From: Streptomyces cupreus
GTDB lineage: Bacteria > Actinomycetota > Actinomycetes > Streptomycetales > Streptomycetaceae
Direction of reading: 5' to 3'
NCBI RefSeq assembly: GCF_014257025.1
Contig: NZ_JACMSF010000047.1
Span: forward strand, 1 to 64,000
DNA length: 64,000 bases
Part shown: positions 31,700-62,530 of the stretch, piece by piece
Layout of the letters: every line of letters starts with the position of its first letter
How positions within the stretch are numbered: position 1 is the stretch's first letter
Notes under the pieces: model-generated
The model's input: the letters and a program-made list of their open reading frames with translations, nothing else
Told to the model about the DNA's origin: nothing
The model's database searches: none
Translations under genes and position numbers: made by a program

Positions 31700-32560
31700 T
31701 CACCTTCGCGATGTGTGCGGGGTGTCTTCAGCTTGATCGTGCGGCGCCACTCCGGCTGGCCGCCGGCCAGGTGATACAAGAACGGCTTCCGGCCCATGCG
31801 GCGGGCGCGGACCGGCTGCAACTCGATGACGAGATCGCCGAGGTCCACACCGTGACGGGCGTGGAAGACGTACAGACCGCTGACCGCGGACAGCTTCCGG
31901 TTGACCGTGGTGACCCCGCAGTGATGCTTCGCCGAGGGCAGCAGCGTCACACCGCCATTCCAGCCCGCAGGCGGCAGCCGGAGCCAGGCGACGAACTCGC
32001 CCCAGCCGGACCTCGCGCCAGTCCAGGCCGCGCCGGTCGAGGAAGACGAACCAGTCCTTCAGATCGTGCGCGTGTGCCTTGACCGTGTTGGGTGACCGCT
32101 CGATGTCGGTCAGGTAGGCCAGGTAGCGCTCGATCGGTCCGACTATCAAGAGAAGCCGGACGAAGCGTCGGTCCACCCCGCCCTCGGTCAGATGCGTGGC
32201 GTACGAATGCCGCAAGGAGTGCGGGACCAGCTCTTTCGGCAAGCCAAGGGCGTCTCGGAATGCCTCGAACCGGTCGTTGATCGAGCCTGGCCGGAGGCGG
32301 CCACCTCGTTCGGTGATCCACAGAGCGGGATGGGCGGGGAATCCGAAGCGCGGGCGGACGTTCTCCACGTAGTCAGCCACTGCCTCGACGGTCCAGTCCA
32401 TCACCGACAAGACGTTCCGGCGCCGCGGCGGCCGGCCCTCCTTGGCCTTGCCGTAGCGGACGTTGAGCGTGCCGTACCGGCCGAACTGACGGGCCTGCGG
32501 GTTGCGTCCGAAGTCGACCAGGTCGAGCTTGGCGGTCGCGGTCCGGCGCAGGCCCCGTGA
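31700..32560 (-). pseudogene. Scrambled tyrosine recombinase relic (C-half followed by N-half)
   Basis: On the minus strand the first part is the C-terminal half of a recombinase (FGRYGTLNVRYGKAKEGRPP, HPALWITERGGRLRPGSIND, VPHSLRHSYATHL), closely resembling the recombinase at 54359. After GGVDRRFV it switches to the N-terminal half of another recombinase (PIERYLAYLTDIERSPNTVK, DWFVFLDRRGLDWREVRL), then in a new frame LLPSAKHHCGVTTVNRKLSA and WRRTIKLKTPRT. The final Tyr motif of the first and the catalytic domain of the second are absent. The likely origin is a deletion fusing two neighbouring recombinase genes, followed by frameshifts. Confidence 0.65.
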
Positions 32561-53203: not shown

Positions 53204-53560
53204 CTAGCGCACCCGGAATGGGACCTGCCGGGCCGACTGCAGCCGGGCTTCACCTGAACTGGCGGTGCCGCAACACCTGTTGCACCTGTTAGCGTCAACG
53301 GAACGGGCGCTGAGCTGCATGAAGCCTCGGCTAGCCTCGCGCCACAGTCGCTCCCCTAGAGAACATGCAGTTGCCGCCACGATCTCGGGAAACATCCCTG
53401 CGAGATCGGTGCCGCGACGCGAGCGCAGCACCACTCGCCCCGCTTCCACGGAGATCTGCGCCCGAAAGCCGTCCCACTTCGGCTCAGCCGCCCACCCCTG
53501 CGGCAGGTCGGGGCTGTTCACGGCCGCAGCCAGCATCGGCTCGGGCAGTGTCCAGGTCAT
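53204..53560 (-). pseudogene. ATP-dependent DNA ligase (LigD-type ligase domain), truncated
   Basis: The first 64 residues (MTWTLPEPMLAAAVNSPDLP, then AEPKWDGFRAQI with the KWDG lysine nucleophile, then FPEIVAAT) match the adenylation domain of NHEJ ATP-dependent ligases. From about 53369 the reading changes to unrelated residues and stops at 53204, so about 250 residues are missing. The start is 22 bases behind the ku stop, the usual ku-ligase operon arrangement. The product cannot be a functional ligase. Confidence 0.7.
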
Positions 53561-53582
53561 GGGCGCGGCATTCGGGCGGACG

Positions 53583-54212
53583 TCAGGCGGCGCTCTTCTT
53601 GCGGCGGCGCCCGGCACGGGTGAGTGCGTCGACGAGCTGCTCGCGGCCCATCTTGGAGCGGCCCTCGATGCCCTGCTCGGTGGCCCGCTGGTACAGCTCC
53701 GCCTTGCTCAGCTGCCCCAGGTCGCCCTTTCCCGTGCTGCGCTGGCGGCCTTTCGAAGCCGTTCGTGCCGTCTTCGGCGGCGCTTTGCGGGCGGCGGATC
53801 TCTTCGCCGCCTTCGCGGCCGGCTTTCGTGCGGTCTTGCGGGCGGGGGCCTTCTTGGTCTGCCGCGACTCGGAGCCCGCCTTCTTGCCGCGGGCCTGGTC
53901 GAGGCTGCCTTGCAGGACGGACATCAGGTCGATGACGTTGGTGGCCTGCGGCGCCTCCTCCGCCACCGCGATCTCCTGGCCCTCGGCCTTCGCCTGCACC
54001 AGCTCACGGACCTTCTCCTGGTAGGTGTCGTGATACCGGCCGGGATCCCAGGAGGCGCTGAGGGCGTCGACGAGCTGGACGGCCAGCGTCAGTTCCTTGC
54101 CCTTGCCTGCGCGACGCGAGGGGAGTTCGGGCAGTTCCTTGCCGGGGTCGCGCACCTCGTCCGCCCAGTGCAGCGTCTGCAAGACCAGCAGCCGCTCCTC
54201 GGCGTTCTGAGC
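53583..54212 (-). pseudogene. ku: Ku DNA-end-binding protein, 3' part (split by insertion)
   Basis: This encodes residues about 155-363 of Ku: [40 protein letters not shown] and [20 protein letters not shown], then a long Lys/Ala/Arg-rich tail of the kind that binds DNA in actinobacterial Ku proteins. A SAP-like [20 protein letters not shown] motif follows. The 5' part lies at 58131-58592; joining the two across the 3.9-kb element gives an in-frame ALR-AQNAEE junction. Without its N-terminal bridge region this half cannot form the Ku ring. Confidence 0.85.
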
Positions 54213-54216
54213 GGAA

Positions 54217-54231
54217 TTGCACCGGATGCAA
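54217..54231. repeat. Palindromic 15-mer at the left end of the element
   Basis: TTGCA-CCGGA-TGCAA, a five-base inverted repeat with five-base spacer, lies five bases inside the left boundary. A near copy with the same arms is at 54343-54357. It is a candidate recombinase-binding core or regulator operator. Confidence 0.55.
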
Positions 54232-54294
54232 CATTCGCAGACGCCGCGCAGGTAGCTGACCTGCAGCTCACCAGAGGGTTCGGTCAGTGCCCAT

Positions 54295-54322
54295 CGCCCA
54301 GGTCGCGTTGCTGACCTGGGCG
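54295..54322. repeat. Perfect 10-bp inverted repeat in the recombinase leader
   Basis: CGCCCAGGTC (54295-54304) and GACCTGGGCG (54313-54322) flank the loop GCGTTGCT. It lies between the two TTGC-TGCAA palindromes and upstream of the recombinase start, so it may be an operator, an attachment-arm site or an early terminator. Confidence 0.55.
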
Positions 54323-54342
54323 GCGTAACCGATTCAACGATG

Positions 54343-54357
54343 TTGCGTTGAATGCAA
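54343..54357. promoter_or_regulatory. Palindromic 15-mer immediately before the recombinase start
   Basis: TTGCG-TTGAA-TGCAA ends just before the GTG at 54359. It shares arms with the 15-mer at 54217. Its position over the start suggests translational or transcriptional autoregulation, perhaps by the element's Cro/C1-type protein. Confidence 0.5.
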
Positions 54358-54358
54358 C

Positions 54359-55480
54359 GTGAGTCATGGAGTGGATCTGCCGGGTGCTGCGCACCTGGTG
54401 CTGGCCGACGGTGTTGTGCACCTTGCTCCCGAGTCGGCCACCTTCGAGGCGATGCTGGAGGGTTGGGCCAGGCAACAGCGGACCAGGTTCCTGGACTGGA
54501 AAGGCACGATTCACCCTCGCTTATTGCTGGTGCGGCGGTTCGCCGACTTCACGAACGAATATCCTTGGCAGTGGAAACCGTGTGAAGTGGAAGCATTTAT
54601 CGACCACCTTCGCGGACGACGGCAGAACTTTGCTGTATCGACTGCGCGCGGTTACCAAAACATCCTGCGTCTATTCTGTGAATACATTACGGATGCGCGC
54701 TACGGCTGGCCGCTGAAGTGCTTGGAATATTTCGGCGAGGCACCTGCACAGATTCTCCACGAGTGGAACACCGTTACCCATTCAAGCGAGTACGAGGGAT
54801 CTCCTGATCGCCGCCCGCTGACCTATGACGAGGTCCAATCCCTCTTCGATGCCGCTGATGGGCGCGTGGAAGAGATTCGAGCCCGTGGCCGCAAGGGTGC
54901 GCTCGCCGCAATGCGCGACTCGGCAATTCTCAAGACCGTCTATGCTTATGGTCTGCGGCGGCAAGAAGCAGCTAGGCTGGATCTGCCCGATCTGCGGCGC
55001 AACTCGAAGCTTCCGGACTACGGGCGCTTCGGAGCTCTATTTGTGCGTTACGGGAAGGCGTCCAAGGGTGGCCCGCCAAAGCGACGCACTGTACTGACCG
55101 TCCCAGAATTCGACTGGGGTGTGGATGTTCTCGGTCATTACCTAGAAGAGGTCCGACCCCGCTTCTCGCCGGGGAATCATCCCGCTCTTTGGGTCACTGA
55201 GAGACGAGGGCGTATTTCACTGAGGCGTCTTGACGAAGCCTTTGAAACCGCCCGTAAAATCGCTGGAATCTCTGAAGAGCTTGACCTGCACAGCCTTCGA
55301 CACAGCTATGTTACCCACCTTCTAGAGTTCGATTATCCGGAACGCTTTGTGCAGGACCAAGTCGGTCATGAATATGCTTCGACAACTGCCATCTACTCCG
55401 GCGTGTCTGACGAGTACAGAAACCGTCTTGTGCAGAGGTCTTTGAAGAAACGCCACGCCGATCTATGGGAGATGCAATAG
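54359..55480 (+). CDS. Tyrosine-type site-specific recombinase
   Basis: A 373-residue recombinase. A core-binding domain (residues about 20-115, [36 protein letters not shown]) precedes the catalytic domain (about 145-360). Active-site residues are seen: first Arg in [18 protein letters not shown], Lys region in [18 protein letters not shown], His-x-x-Arg in [11 protein letters not shown], His in [19 protein letters not shown], and the Tyr in the same segment. GTG at 54359 is used; no strong ribosome-binding site is present. Codon use is less GC-biased than the chromosome. Its stop overlaps the start of the regulator gene. It is the probable integrase of the element. Confidence 0.88.
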
Positions 55481-55806
55481 TGATCAAAAAGATGGGGACC
55501 CGATGGAATCTGCGCAAATTGATGGCAACTCGCGACATGTTCCAGACCACGGACCTGGTGCCACTCCTTGCAGAACGCGGAATCCACCTCTCGCGCGAAC
55601 AGGTCTTCCGATTGGTCACCCAGTCTCCGCAGCGCTTGTCCATGGATACGCTGGCGGCCCTCTGCGACATCCTTGCGTGCACACCGAACGACCTCATCGA
55701 AGTCGAGGTCGTCAATACCGAAGTCCGCAAGACAGTTGGAGGCGAGGCTGGGCCGGCGCCTGCTCCGATCCGCAGGACCACTATTCGAAGGCCCGGAGAC
55801 TCCTGA
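55480..55806 (+). CDS. Cro/C1-type helix-turn-helix regulator
   Basis: A 108-residue protein with an HTH_26/XRE-like domain at residues about 5-70 (WNLRKLMATRDMFQTTDLVP, LLAERGIHLSREQVFRLVTQ, QRLSMDTLAALCDILACTPN, DLIEVEV) and a basic, flexible tail. GTG at 55480 overlaps the recombinase stop (TAGTG) and follows GGGAG by nine bases; an earlier in-frame ATG at 55465 would overlap more. The stop is directly followed by the ATG of the zinc-ribbon protein. It probably controls the operon or serves as a directionality factor. Confidence 0.85.
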   Translation: MIKKMGTRWNLRKLMATRDMFQTTDLVPLLAERGIHLSREQVFRLVTQSPQRLSMDTLAALCDILACTPNDLIEVEVVNTEVRKTVGGEAGPAPAPIRRTTIRRPGDS

Positions 55807-58119
55807 ATGGCACCACTTGATCGGAGGGCTGCTCTTGCTCGGGTGACAAGACAACTCTCAGAAAATCTGCCGGAGTTGCCGCAGGAGGCTTTGGCTGCCG
55901 CCTTGGTGGCTGCGCGGTGCGACTGCTATCGCGGACTGAAAGAACTCGACGAGCATATTGCGGCTCACCCACATGCACTGATCACGGCCACGCCGAACGC
56001 CCCAAAGGCACTGATCCGGCTTGCCCACATCCTTCACGAGCAGGGACAGCAGGCAATCGTGCTGCCCTCTTGCGCTGTCTGCGGGACCGTCAGTCAAAAA
56101 CTGCCACACGTTGACGGCGAGGGCGGCCGCCTCTGTGAGCCCTGCTTCCGTCACTTGCATCCCAAGCTGTGCGCCCGCTGCGGCAAGCTTGGAAGGATCG
56201 CGACTCGCAAACCTGAAGGCGGAATCTGCAAGAAATGCCACGAAGCTGACCCTGCGGCGCTGACGACTTGTGCAAGTTGTGGTCGACTTCGCAGAGTCAA
56301 CGTGCGCCAGGCTGACGGCACGGCACTGTGTTCCTCCTGTTGTCCAAAACCTATGCACCAGTGCTCGGTGTGCGGTAGGAAGGCCCCTGCTCGGGCGAAC
56401 ACCAAAGACGGTCCCGTTTGTGCTAGCTGTTACCGCTCGCCGGCGCGAACGTGCGGGAAGTGCGGGAAAACCCGTCCCATCGCAATTAGGGCGACTGGCG
56501 ATTCCCCGGACCTCTGCAGCGGTTGCTACTACGGACCTGTCGGTTTGTGCTCCATCTGTGCTCGAACTCGACCTTGCCGTCGTGACCGCGTCACAGGACA
56601 ACTCACCTGCGCCCGATGTCATTCTCGGCCCAAGCAGATCTGCTGGCGTTGTCGACGGAATAGCGAAGTCCACGCACTTTGGCCGGTCGGTCCCGTTTGT
56701 GTCTCCTGCTACCAACACATGCGAATCAATCCAACCGCATGCGCCGACTGCGAGGCGGTTCGAACCCTCGTCGGCAAGAATTCTCTTGGGAAGATGATTT
56801 GCAGTCCCTGCGCAGGCGTTCTCAAGGATTACAACACCTGTCGCACCTGCGGACAAGAAGGGTACCGATACGCTGATGGCTCTTGTGACCGCTGCGTCCT
56901 CAAGAGACGGCTCCAAAATCTGCTCGCCGGCCCCGACGGAGCCATCGCCTCACAGCTTCACCCCTTGGTAACTGCCCTGGAATCCGTACCCCATCCCTCC
57001 CGAACTATCCGCTGGCTAACAGGAATTCGTGCAGGCCGAGCAGCTGAGATCCTCATCGAAGTGGCACGAAGCGGGCTGCCGGTAACTCATGAACTCCTTG
57101 ACGAGTTCCCGCCGGGACAGGCTTTGAGTCACGTTCGTGGAATGCTCGTGCACTCGGGAGCCCTGACCGAGCGAAACGAATATCTTGAACGCATTACCCC
57201 ATGGCTTGACCGGCTATTGGAGCATGAGCCAGCGCACCATGTCCGCCTGATCCGCCCGTTTGCGCACTGGCACGTTCTCCTCCGAGCACGTCGCAAGGCG
57301 CGGCGGCGAAGCATCACCTACGGATCCAGCGAGTTCGTGAAGTCCAGGATCCGAATCGCGTTGCATTTTCTGACCTGGCTCGATGAGCAAGAGAGGTCGC
57401 TCGACACACTGCGCCAGGAAGACATCGACCGCTGGCTCATCTCCGGCCCCCGCCAGCGATACGCCATTCGCTGCTTCCTGGACTGGGCGGTCCGCCGCCG
57501 CATCGTTGGCTCGATCGCGGTTCCGGCTCCCCGCGATGGACATCCCGTGCAATTCATCGATGAAGACCGGTACACCGAGCTACTCAGGCGCTGTCTCAAC
57601 GACGTCGATCTCCCAGTCGACGTTCGAGTCGCTGGCGCCTTGGTCCTGCTGTTCGGCGTCACTGTCCAACGTGTTCTGCAATTGCGGCTGGAAGATCTCA
57701 ACCGCGGGAATGACAGCATCGATCTCATGCTTGGGGATAAACCTGTCAGGCTCCCACCACGCCTGGCTCAATTGGTGCTTGAGCTTGCGGACTCGCCTCG
57801 CGATCGATCGGCTGTGGGCCGAGCCGTTGGCACCACTCAATTCCTCTTCCCCGGCAGGGTACCTGGCCGACCTGCCCATGCAGCTGCCTTCGCTAACAAG
57901 CTGAACCGGCACGACATCAAAATCACGGCAGCCCGCAACACCGCTCGCATCACACTGGCTCTCGATCTACCCGCGGCCGTCCTTGCTGACCTCTTCGACA
58001 TGCACATCAACACCGCGGTCCGCTGGGTGCATCGGGCGAAGCGGGACTGGAGCAGCTACATCGCGGCACGAGCCGAGGACCTCAACCACCAGGGAATACC
58101 GCAGCGATGGAACAAGTGA
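55807..58119 (+). CDS. Nine-zinc-ribbon protein with recombinase-like C-terminus
   Basis: A 770-residue protein. Residues 1-88 are helical (LPELPQEALAAALVAARCDC). Residues about 89-365 hold 18 CxxC pairs (CAVC, CEPC, CARC, CKKC, CASC, CSSC and so on to CDRC), that is nine four-Cys zinc ribbons in tandem. Residues about 470-750 look like a tyrosine recombinase: a core-binding domain (FVKSRIRIALHFLTWLDEQE, LDTLRQEDIDRWLISGP), then LVLLFGVTVQRVLQLRLEDL with the first Arg. The usual HxxR is replaced by AARNTARITLAL, and the region of the nucleophile reads DMHINTAVRWVHRAKRD, with Trp where Tyr is expected. It is therefore probably a non-catalytic or atypical partner that binds DNA or RNA. Confidence 0.8.
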   Translation: MAPLDRRAALARVTRQLSENLPELPQEALAAALVAARCDCYRGLKELDEHIAAHPHALITATPNAPKALIRLAHILHEQGQQAIVLPSCAVCGTVSQKLPHVDGEGGRLCEPCFRHLHPKLCARCGKLGRIATRKPEGGICKKCHEADPAALTTCASCGRLRRVNVRQADGTALCSSCCPKPMHQCSVCGRKAPARANTKDGPVCASCYRSPARTCGKCGKTRPIAIRATGDSPDLCSGCYYGPVGLCSICARTRPCRRDRVTGQLTCARCHSRPKQICWRCRRNSEVHALWPVGPVCVSCYQHMRINPTACADCEAVRTLVGKNSLGKMICSPCAGVLKDYNTCRTCGQEGYRYADGSCDRCVLKRRLQNLLAGPDGAIASQLHPLVTALESVPHPSRTIRWLTGIRAGRAAEILIEVARSGLPVTHELLDEFPPGQALSHVRGMLVHSGALTERNEYLERITPWLDRLLEHEPAHHVRLIRPFAHWHVLLRARRKARRRSITYGSSEFVKSRIRIALHFLTWLDEQERSLDTLRQEDIDRWLISGPRQRYAIRCFLDWAVRRRIVGSIAVPAPRDGHPVQFIDEDRYTELLRRCLNDVDLPVDVRVAGALVLLFGVTVQRVLQLRLEDLNRGNDSIDLMLGDKPVRLPPRLAQLVLELADSPRDRSAVGRAVGTTQFLFPGRVPGRPAHAAAFANKLNRHDIKITAARNTARITLALDLPAAVLADLFDMHINTAVRWVHRAKRDWSSYIAARAEDLNHQGIPQRWNK

Positions 58120-58130
58120 TCTCCGCCAGT

Positions 58131-58592
58131 ACGCAGCGCGGTGAGGTACTGCTTGCCGCGCATGACGAACGTCGCGATCCCGGCCTTGTCCGAATCCTCG
58201 AGCGCCGCGCGGAGCAGCTCGTAGACCTTGGTGTGCTCCTTGCCGCGGGGCGCGACGTAGTACGTCCGGGCGAAGTAGACCGGCTCGATGTCGGCCAGCT
58301 CGACGAAGTCGGTGATGTCGATGGTCTGGGAGCGGCCCGGCGCGATCCGGTCCAGCTCGTCGGGCTCGACGACGATGTACTCCCCCTCGGCGAGCTCGTA
58401 GCCCTTGACGATGTCCTCGGACGGTACTTCCCTGCCGGTGCGCTCGTTGACGCGCCGGTTGCGGATCCGGTCGGCGGTACCGCGCTGCAGCTGGTGGAAG
58501 TGGACCGTGTGGTCCTCGGTCGCCGTGTACAGGCCCACGGGCAGGCTGGCCAGTCCGAAGGTGATCACACCGGTCCAGATCGAGCGTGCCAT
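58131..58592 (-). pseudogene. ku: Ku DNA-end-binding protein, 5' part (split by insertion)
   Basis: This encodes residues 1-154 of Ku: MARSIWTGVITFGLASLPVG, HFHQLQRGTADRIRNRRVNE, IVKGYELAEGEYIVVEPDEL, VYFARTYYVAPRGKEHTKVY and GIATFVMRGKQYLTALR. The reading then enters the element (TGGDHLFHRCG). Ku holds broken DNA ends for non-homologous end joining with LigD-type ligases. With its 3' part separated at 53583-54212 and the downstream ligase truncated, this NHEJ operon is non-functional unless another copy exists elsewhere. Confidence 0.88.
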
Positions 58593-61440: not shown

Positions 61441-61789
61441 ACCTGCACATGCATCACGGGGGGGCGCGGCTGGGGCATGGTCGCTCTCGGGAAGTGTTGG
61501 GGAGAACGGCCCGCGTCGCGAGGTCGACTTGAACCGCCCGGCTTCGGTGGGCGAGTGGTCGGGGCCAGCGAGGCGGCGCCGGTGACCGTGGAGGGGCCCA
61601 ATGGTCCGGGACCCGGCTGCGGCCCTGGGTCGCCCGGGCAGTTCACCCATGTCCCGGCGATCGACGAGGCGATGTTCGCTGACATGTACAAGAAGGAAGC
61701 TCAGCGGCTGTTCAACTTCCTGTCGGTCGATGACCTGGTCAAAGCCCTGAGTGCGGACAGCGGCATCCACTGCGGGCACGCGCCGAACA

Positions 61790-62530
61790 GAGCCACACCA
61801 CACCCAGCGTCCGCCGCTTCGCGGCCGAGCAGGTGAAGTACGCGGCAACCTTCCTCCACTGGCTCGGCGAGCGGAACACCACCCTCGCATCCTGCCGACA
61901 GGCCGACATCGACGCCTGGTGGGCCGAGAACAGTGAACACGGCCGAACCTGTTCCAGGGCGTTTCTCAACTGGGCCATGCAGGGCCGCCGTTGCAGACGA
62001 TCGCTCTCCATACCGGCGATGAAGACTTCCCGGCGAGCCGCGCTGAGCGAGGACGAGCGCCTGGACGCCCTCGGCCGACTCCTGGCCGACACCGCGAGAC
62101 CGCTGCGACTCCGTGTCGCTGGGGTCATCGTGCTCCTCTACGCAGCCTCTGGCCCGGATCGTCCGGCTCACGGTCGACGACGTGATCCGCGACGGAGTAA
62201 CGGTGCTGCTAAGGCTCGGAGAACCAGCCTCGCCCGCTCCTGCACCGGTCGCCTCCCTGCTGCTGGAGCACATCGCGGACCGCGACAACATGAACACCGC
62301 CACCAACCCGGCATCCCGTGGCTTTTCCCCGGCCGCAGCCGCCCGCGGCGCCGCCATCCGGCAGCAACTCCTGGAAATGCCCATTCCCGTCGTCGCAGAG
62401 GCTCTCGGCTACCACGACAAGACCACCACTCGGCTCCGCAACGAGACCGGTGGGGCATGGAGCCGTTACGCCCCTGAGGATCACTCAAGATCGCCAGCGG
62501 GCTGGGCTCCTAAGGGAGCCGGCGACCGCT
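61790..62530 (+). pseudogene. Relic of a zinc-ribbon/recombinase-like protein (C-terminal half)
   Basis: The reading RFAAEQVKYAATFLHWLGER, SCRQADIDAWWAENSEHGRT, FLNWAMQGRRCR and LRLRVAGVIVLLYA, then in another frame PLARIVRLTVDDVIRDGVTV, parallels the recombinase-like half of the 770-residue protein at 55807. The late part EMPIPVVAEALGYHDKTTTR and LRNETGGAWSRYA corresponds to its last helices and again lacks the HxxR and Tyr set. At least two frameshifts and an internal deletion are present, and the zinc-ribbon half is missing. Confidence 0.6.

Follow-up and report, generated by a model that had tools for sequence, protein, structure and literature searches.

A three-gene element in ku

In a stretch of 64,000 nucleotides from Streptomyces cupreus (assembly GCF_014257025.1, contig NZ_JACMSF010000047.1, positions 1 to 64,000; hereafter the window), the open reading frames (ORFs) and a comparison with uninterrupted homologues reveal a ku gene split in two by an insert of 3,927 bp at positions 54205-58131. 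The N-terminal part of ku lies at 58132-58592 on the reverse strand (Pfam Ku PF02735, E = 2.6e-43, and the same comparison), and the C-terminal part at 53583-54204 on the same strand (homology to uninterrupted ku). The insert carries three open genes, all on the forward strand: int (54359-55480), encoding a 373-aa tyrosine recombinase (PF00589, E = 1e-18); a gene for a 113-aa Cro/C1-type helix-turn-helix (HTH) protein of the HTH_26 family (55465-55806; PF13443, E = 1.3e-15); and a gene for a third protein of 770 aa (55807-58119), characterised through an alignment of 52 sequences and a predicted model. The catalytic set R-K-H-R-H-Y of int is complete and invariant across 10 relatives, with R200, K233, H311, R314, H337 and Y346 presumably filling these roles by the family motif. 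The genes are packed as in an operon, the HTH gene starting 16 nt inside int and the third gene abutting the HTH stop.

A preliminary description of this locus, made from the sequence alone, had already proposed such an operon in a discrete recombinase element splitting ku, and a gapless match to uninterrupted ku bears this out. It had also noted a codon use less GC-biased than that of the host, and indeed GC content falls from about 0.70 outside the insert to 0.54-0.62 in intervals within it, with GC at third codon positions of 0.61 for int, 0.70 for the HTH gene and 0.65 for the third gene, against 0.95 for the N-terminal part of ku and 0.79-0.93 for six other ORFs of the window.

The boundaries were established at nucleotide level against the 20 best-listed ku loci from 120 genomes searched, 113 of which had a match. 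Against locus L087, host ku reads ...GCGCTGCG / CGCCGAGG... gaplessly across the insertion point, giving the join ALR-AEE and a gene length equal to that of ku homologues. BLAST matches on the N side end at one common base in L084, L086, L087, L088 and L089, with L085 reaching 11 nt further. Those on the C side begin where expected in L087 and L089, one base past that point in L085 and further along in the rest. The right end is fixed independently, because relatives L116, L119, L121 and L122 have the same terminus, while the outermost ~6 bp on the left may be coupling sequence rather than element. Thus, the split stands as first described, but not its coordinates (54213 and 58130), and the join proposed at the time, ALR-AQN-AEE, had retained three extra codons (nine bases). 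No target duplication was found on comparing the insert ends with uninterrupted ku, as had been stated. An IS-type insertion is ruled out, given that the insert has neither a DDE gene nor a target duplication.

The ends are not featureless, as had been thought, and the reported absence of inverted repeats was too strong, since imperfect subterminal inverted cores are present. At the left end (54213-54231), the core GGAATTG, also found at the left ends of relatives, is overlapped by a first palindrome, TTGCACCGGATGCAA (54217-54231). A second, TTGCGTTGAATGCAA (54343-54357), lies directly 5' of the int start, touching it, and is a candidate operator. The right end (58094-58131) reads GAATACC...GCCAGTA in common with the four relatives named above, and GCCAGTA or a similar sequence closes the right ends of five relatives.

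Elsewhere in the source genome lies another, uninterrupted ku homologue (G000:C140:27541-28311, 39% identity), which rules out the loss of a sole ku by the insertion. Adjoining the split ku is a truncated gene at 53204-53617 on the reverse strand, which we take from its EPKWDGF motif to be the N-terminus of an ATP-dependent ligase; its second piece was not found in the window. In genome G067 another ku is interrupted, near residue 116-118, by an ORF (L206 1238-2518) that reads by eye like an IS256-type transposase, and this locus was therefore ruled out as a further case of the ku element.

A family of actinobacterial elements

Counting decayed copies, the third protein has matches in 95 of 199 same-genus genomes; in a wider draw across the phylum it was matched in 19 of 296 genomes, and it also matches 245 plasmid records. 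The element family is common in Streptomyces. A phage origin was rejected, as the same protein had no match in the phage collection searched. Among 52 same-genus loci, the order int-HTH-third gene, whose search in related genomes the preliminary description had suggested, is kept in 49; L041 and L080 cover one element, and L062 and L066 have an int fragment only. In the best 80 of 274 int relatives, all actinobacterial by title, int and the HTH gene occur together throughout (80/80) and the third gene in 77, the three misses falling at contig ends. Genome G090 has copies at three sites, which agree at 99.7-99.98% identity over 4,966-5,012 bp. In G158 the pairs L035-L036 and L036-L037 are 99.88-99.98% identical over ~4,890 bp, with L035 and L037 sharing flanks, so that the three loci represent two distinct sites. 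That nearly the same copy occurs at separate sites implies mobility.

Pfam, NCBIfam and PHROGs hold no name for the family beyond generic integrase and HTH models, and we found no published description of the element in open-licence PMC papers.

Target choice across the family

The insertion in ku is an ordinary insertion of this family; the surprise is the choice of targets. Those targets that could be read are mostly conserved coding motifs. In a sister clade, clade B, the left junction reads TAC-NNN followed by the element. The reading frame that runs into this junction from upstream breaks off within box II of a tyrosine recombinase in 14 loci, which places the catalytic Tyr right at the junction (e.g., LGHSSVLTTELY, LGHKSATLTLDTY). 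A fifteenth element, L079, sits one codon further on, after TTRGYYR, so that all 15 are read at the catalytic-Tyr box, on the same strand and at the same codon or one on. The hosts are mutually dissimilar (15-29% identity to the first host), and 11 of 14 match PF00589. Of 14 elements, 13 close on the right with ...CACCATTA, and removing the element in silico left an open frame that finishes in an integrase-like tail in all 13 cases with both ends found. Recognisable tails include TYG-HLFPDRLDEV and, in L038, GVSDEYRNR, which is the tail of a focal-type int; in L038 a clade B element lies within the int of another element, one of the focal type. L062 and L037 (which shares its flank with L035) were left out of the box II count, and L063 (no right end) and L079 out of the removal test. 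A 54-bp DNA profile of 13 box II sites separates some sites, not all: for five of 13 left-out sites, 249-981 places per 2.08 Mb of strand scored as well or better, of which up to 80 are box II of int genes in the background. With so many places scoring as well as some true sites, plain DNA, as modelled from so few sites (13), may be just part of the signal.

A second clade, nearer to the focal element, occupies the box I catalytic-Arg motif, TGMRxxE or a variant of it, at nine loci. Only one of the nine hosts has a Pfam integrase match, a weak one; the hosts were identified by the motif, by homologues that bear the annotation 'integrase' and by the split halves. Both halves are present in 6/9, just the C half in L044 and L135 and just the N half in L130. 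In L136, for instance, 6.5 kb lie between host halves 1-367 and 369-714. In two plasmid homologues the host is an 'integrase' of 715 aa or similar, encoded in an operon that pairs two integrases with two hypothetical proteins. The Streptomyces plasmids L199 (1-4588) and L200 (1-4601) carry SE/GInt-like operons in the order int, hypothetical, int, hypothetical, with the large int being the target of the catalytic-Arg clade.

Further targets were identified by family match: ATP-dependent DNA ligases (L051, L168 weakly, L180 and L176), 2'-5' RNA ligases (L039, L067), a YraN-like UPF0102 protein (L045), a Tn3 transposase (L129), a glutaredoxin/NrdH-like protein (L173), a ComM-like Mg chelatase (L070), a P-loop kinase (L057), a Nudix protein (L050) and NrdJ (L114). 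The insertions L114 and L119 lie directly past the nrdJ stop codon, which leaves their host intact. No Pfam family was found for the hosts of L053, L127, L170, L046 and L123, although the L127 host is an RRQRL zinc protein by NCBIfam, and those of L174 and L144 have weak ones only. The HNH labels of the L053, L054 and L074 hosts are assumed from the motif.

Targets track the int phylogeny. On an int tree of 118 rows, 56 with a target label assigned by eye from motifs, the labels need 18 changes, where the least possible is 15 and the shuffled mean is 39.2, with 0/200 shuffles as low; L133, L165, L175 and L186 (duplicates of loci L044, L045, L050 and L049) and L120 were dropped from this tree, as were L048 and L053 by int length. 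Tyrosine-recombinase genes account for 23 of the 56 labelled targets. The catalytic-Arg label requires two changes, nrdJ three and Tn3 two, and the row nearest to the focal int is L114 (82%), at nrdJ. When 10 unlabelled loci were read as a held-out set, L151 fitted the ligase clade, L171 read like L170, L132 contradicted its clade and the remaining seven gave no target assignment. The preliminary description had named, as a result that would contradict it, a constant scatter of the three genes over unrelated loci with no conservation of their ends. The loci are indeed many, yet relatives at different loci have conserved ends and clade-specific target motifs, so that this contradiction does not arise.

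The third protein as a predicted dead recombinase

The third protein consists of a helical N-terminus, nine zinc ribbons (~89-363), a helical linker and a recombinase fold at residues 475-763. The alignment of 52 sequences places 18 CxxC motifs in the focal protein; Pfam yields only weak zinc-ribbon matches below cutoff, and NCBIfam has no family for it. An AlphaFold2 model reached a mean predicted local distance difference test score of 87.8 and a predicted template modelling score of 0.62, the latter leaving the domain arrangement uncertain. Residues 475-763 of the model match tyrosine recombinases (Foldseek E = 4.4e-6 to Tn1549 Int), with a structural alignment at Z 13.5 and a root-mean-square deviation of 4.7 over 261 residues. 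The nucleophile position, assigned by motif, is W in 49 of 52 proteins (W740 in the focal one), F in two and a gap in one, and the second Arg of the recombinase motif is kept in 49/52. Taken together, the fold, the W and the ribbons lead us to predict a dead recombinase with a zinc-ribbon array. The preliminary description was right that the protein appears non-catalytic and carries zinc ribbons, but a zinc-ribbon label does not cover a C-terminal half with a predicted recombinase fold. Besides this fold, it missed the relatives in 95/199 genomes and the target choice. Among pairs with an int identity of 0.65-0.75, zinc regions are more alike when the target is the same (0.61 vs 0.45).

Interpretation and alternatives

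The boundaries, gene set, gene order, multiple copies and target pattern, all read from sequence, argue that the element is quite probably an intact and likely autonomous site-specific transposon of an actinobacterial family in which each clade prefers one conserved coding motif, which would explain insertions at the same codon in unrelated genes. A transposition route, with its regulation and targeting, can be proposed. The int recombinase would cut and join at short core sites at the two element ends and the target. The HTH protein would repress from the left-end palindromes overlapping the core and the int start, possibly coupling repression to excision; two TTGCATCnGATGCAA-like palindromes are present in 93 of 123 left regions, against 0/123 after base shuffling. 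The zinc-ribbon/dead-recombinase protein may act as a non-catalytic partner in the recombination complex, adding DNA contacts and helping to choose the target. Lineages would sometimes switch target, and the ku insertion may be one such switch, as the nearest int relative sits at the nrdJ stop.

Several observations weigh against this picture. The source genome has a single full copy, and the case for movement (circle formation, excision, transposition) is drawn from comparison rather than from observed events. The shuffle behind the palindrome count preserved base composition only, on regions that include near-copies. The right ends are constant, and the 6-bp footprint described for SE and Tn554 did not turn up there. 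Among the tree rows, 62/118 are without a target label, neither the Tn3 nor the nrdJ labels form one clade, L132 lacks the catalytic-Arg motif at its site despite lying within that clade, and a seven-row clade (L042, L043, L060, L061, L075, L078, L082), whose left ends share CCGCCAATTGCATCGGATGCGAAC or similar, lies in no recognised gene. As for the third protein, whose role we infer, hhalign detected no similarity to int (prob 0.3%) and a profile search of solved structures returned XerD alone, at E = 0.3; sequence-level kinship with int is thus rejected. Moreover, the zinc regions of L114 and L119, both at nrdJ, have a similarity of just 0.43.

The unlabelled rows, the labelling by eye and the weak box II profile are also what one would expect if insertion were wide and conserved genes simply easier to recognise. 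Such an ascertainment effect is improbable, given 15/15 elements at one box in dissimilar hosts of a single clade and the clustering of labels on the int tree. Alternatively, the insert could be a defective or domesticated island, immobile, that arrived once in ku with a larger element; the single full copy and the truncated neighbouring ligase gene would fit. We regard this too as unlikely, since the three genes are open, the ends exact and the relatives multi-copy and nearly identical at different sites.

A relationship to known systems deserves closer consideration. In PMC10214605, Tn554 is described as transposing site-specifically with no target duplication, using tyrosine recombinases that include a long one, together with a small protein, all of which resembles our element; SE as having four genes, two active recombinases and a 6-bp footprint, with reports only from Gammaproteobacteria; and recombinase-in-trio (RIT) elements as encoding three proteins that all have the catalytic tyrosine, between 34-bp terminal inverted repeats. 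Our element shares three adjacent, overlapping genes with RIT, but an identity with RIT is rejected, as the preliminary description had argued, because the middle gene is a regulator (PF13443) and the third protein lacks the Tyr. GInts (ginABCD) have an operon of recombinase-fold proteins at one element end, with GinC missing part of the motif, according to PMC5385486.

It is possible, if doubtful, that our element belongs to this Tn554/SE/GInt group, its second recombinase without catalysis and its route copy-out with a 6-bp footprint. In favour are several recombinase-fold proteins per operon with a large second and a small third protein, preferred targets, the missing target duplication and the fact that Tfp of SE and GinC of GInt, beside active partners, also lack parts of the catalytic motif (PMC10214605 and PMC5385486). 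Yet just one protein here has the catalytic set, next to a dead one with nine zinc ribbons, and an HTH_26 protein takes the place of TnpC/Srap/GinD. Tn554 has two catalytic recombinases (TnpA and TnpB) and TnpC, a set not matched here by gene content, with no TnpC-profile search made; SE and GInt have four-gene operons with two active recombinases, GInt comprising three recombinase genes plus GinD, whereas here there are three genes, one active, with the HTH gene in the middle. Furthermore, the right ends are constant (13/14 in clade B and in five further elements), which may speak against donor-derived sequence there. PMC3414803 describes Tn554-related pairs from 2012 (Famint27/33, 36/41) that likewise consist of a short and a long recombinase on actinobacterial plasmids. 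The third protein was unmatched in two of the plasmids listed for them, a search without a positive control and hence weak; int matched pREL1 at ~36% over part only, and pRHL2 not at all. By the features tested, the element is a new type of site-specific tyrosine-recombinase transposon outside Tn554, SE and GInt, with a logic akin to theirs.

To our knowledge, most site-specific elements insert into tRNA genes or at one safe site. In this family the targets are active-site codons of unrelated genes, many of them in rival mobile elements, and they differ between close relatives. We tentatively suggest that the family might home to catalytic codons of rival elements' recombinases and to DNA-repair motifs, with a re-aimable dead recombinase reading the target through its zinc-ribbon array. 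If true, a single conserved int could be pointed at new coding motifs, and disabling rivals may be selected; a zinc-ribbon target reader would represent a natural case of cutting split from aiming. Two questions thereby become testable, namely how targets change in tyrosine-recombinase systems and whether selection favours elements that disable each other.

Relics and passenger genes

Two relics of related genes lie elsewhere in the window, as had been recognised: one of a clade B int gene at 32156-32554 on the reverse strand (86% identity to residues 198-330 of the L033 int) and a decayed one of a third-type gene at 61770-62493 on the forward strand (homology to the third protein). Both are real and point to more than one acquisition in the window. 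Some relatives additionally carry passenger genes (L033 4149-4919; after the third gene in L035, L036, L065 and L045), which read by eye as acetyltransferase-like, short-chain-dehydrogenase-like and GIY-YIG-like proteins.

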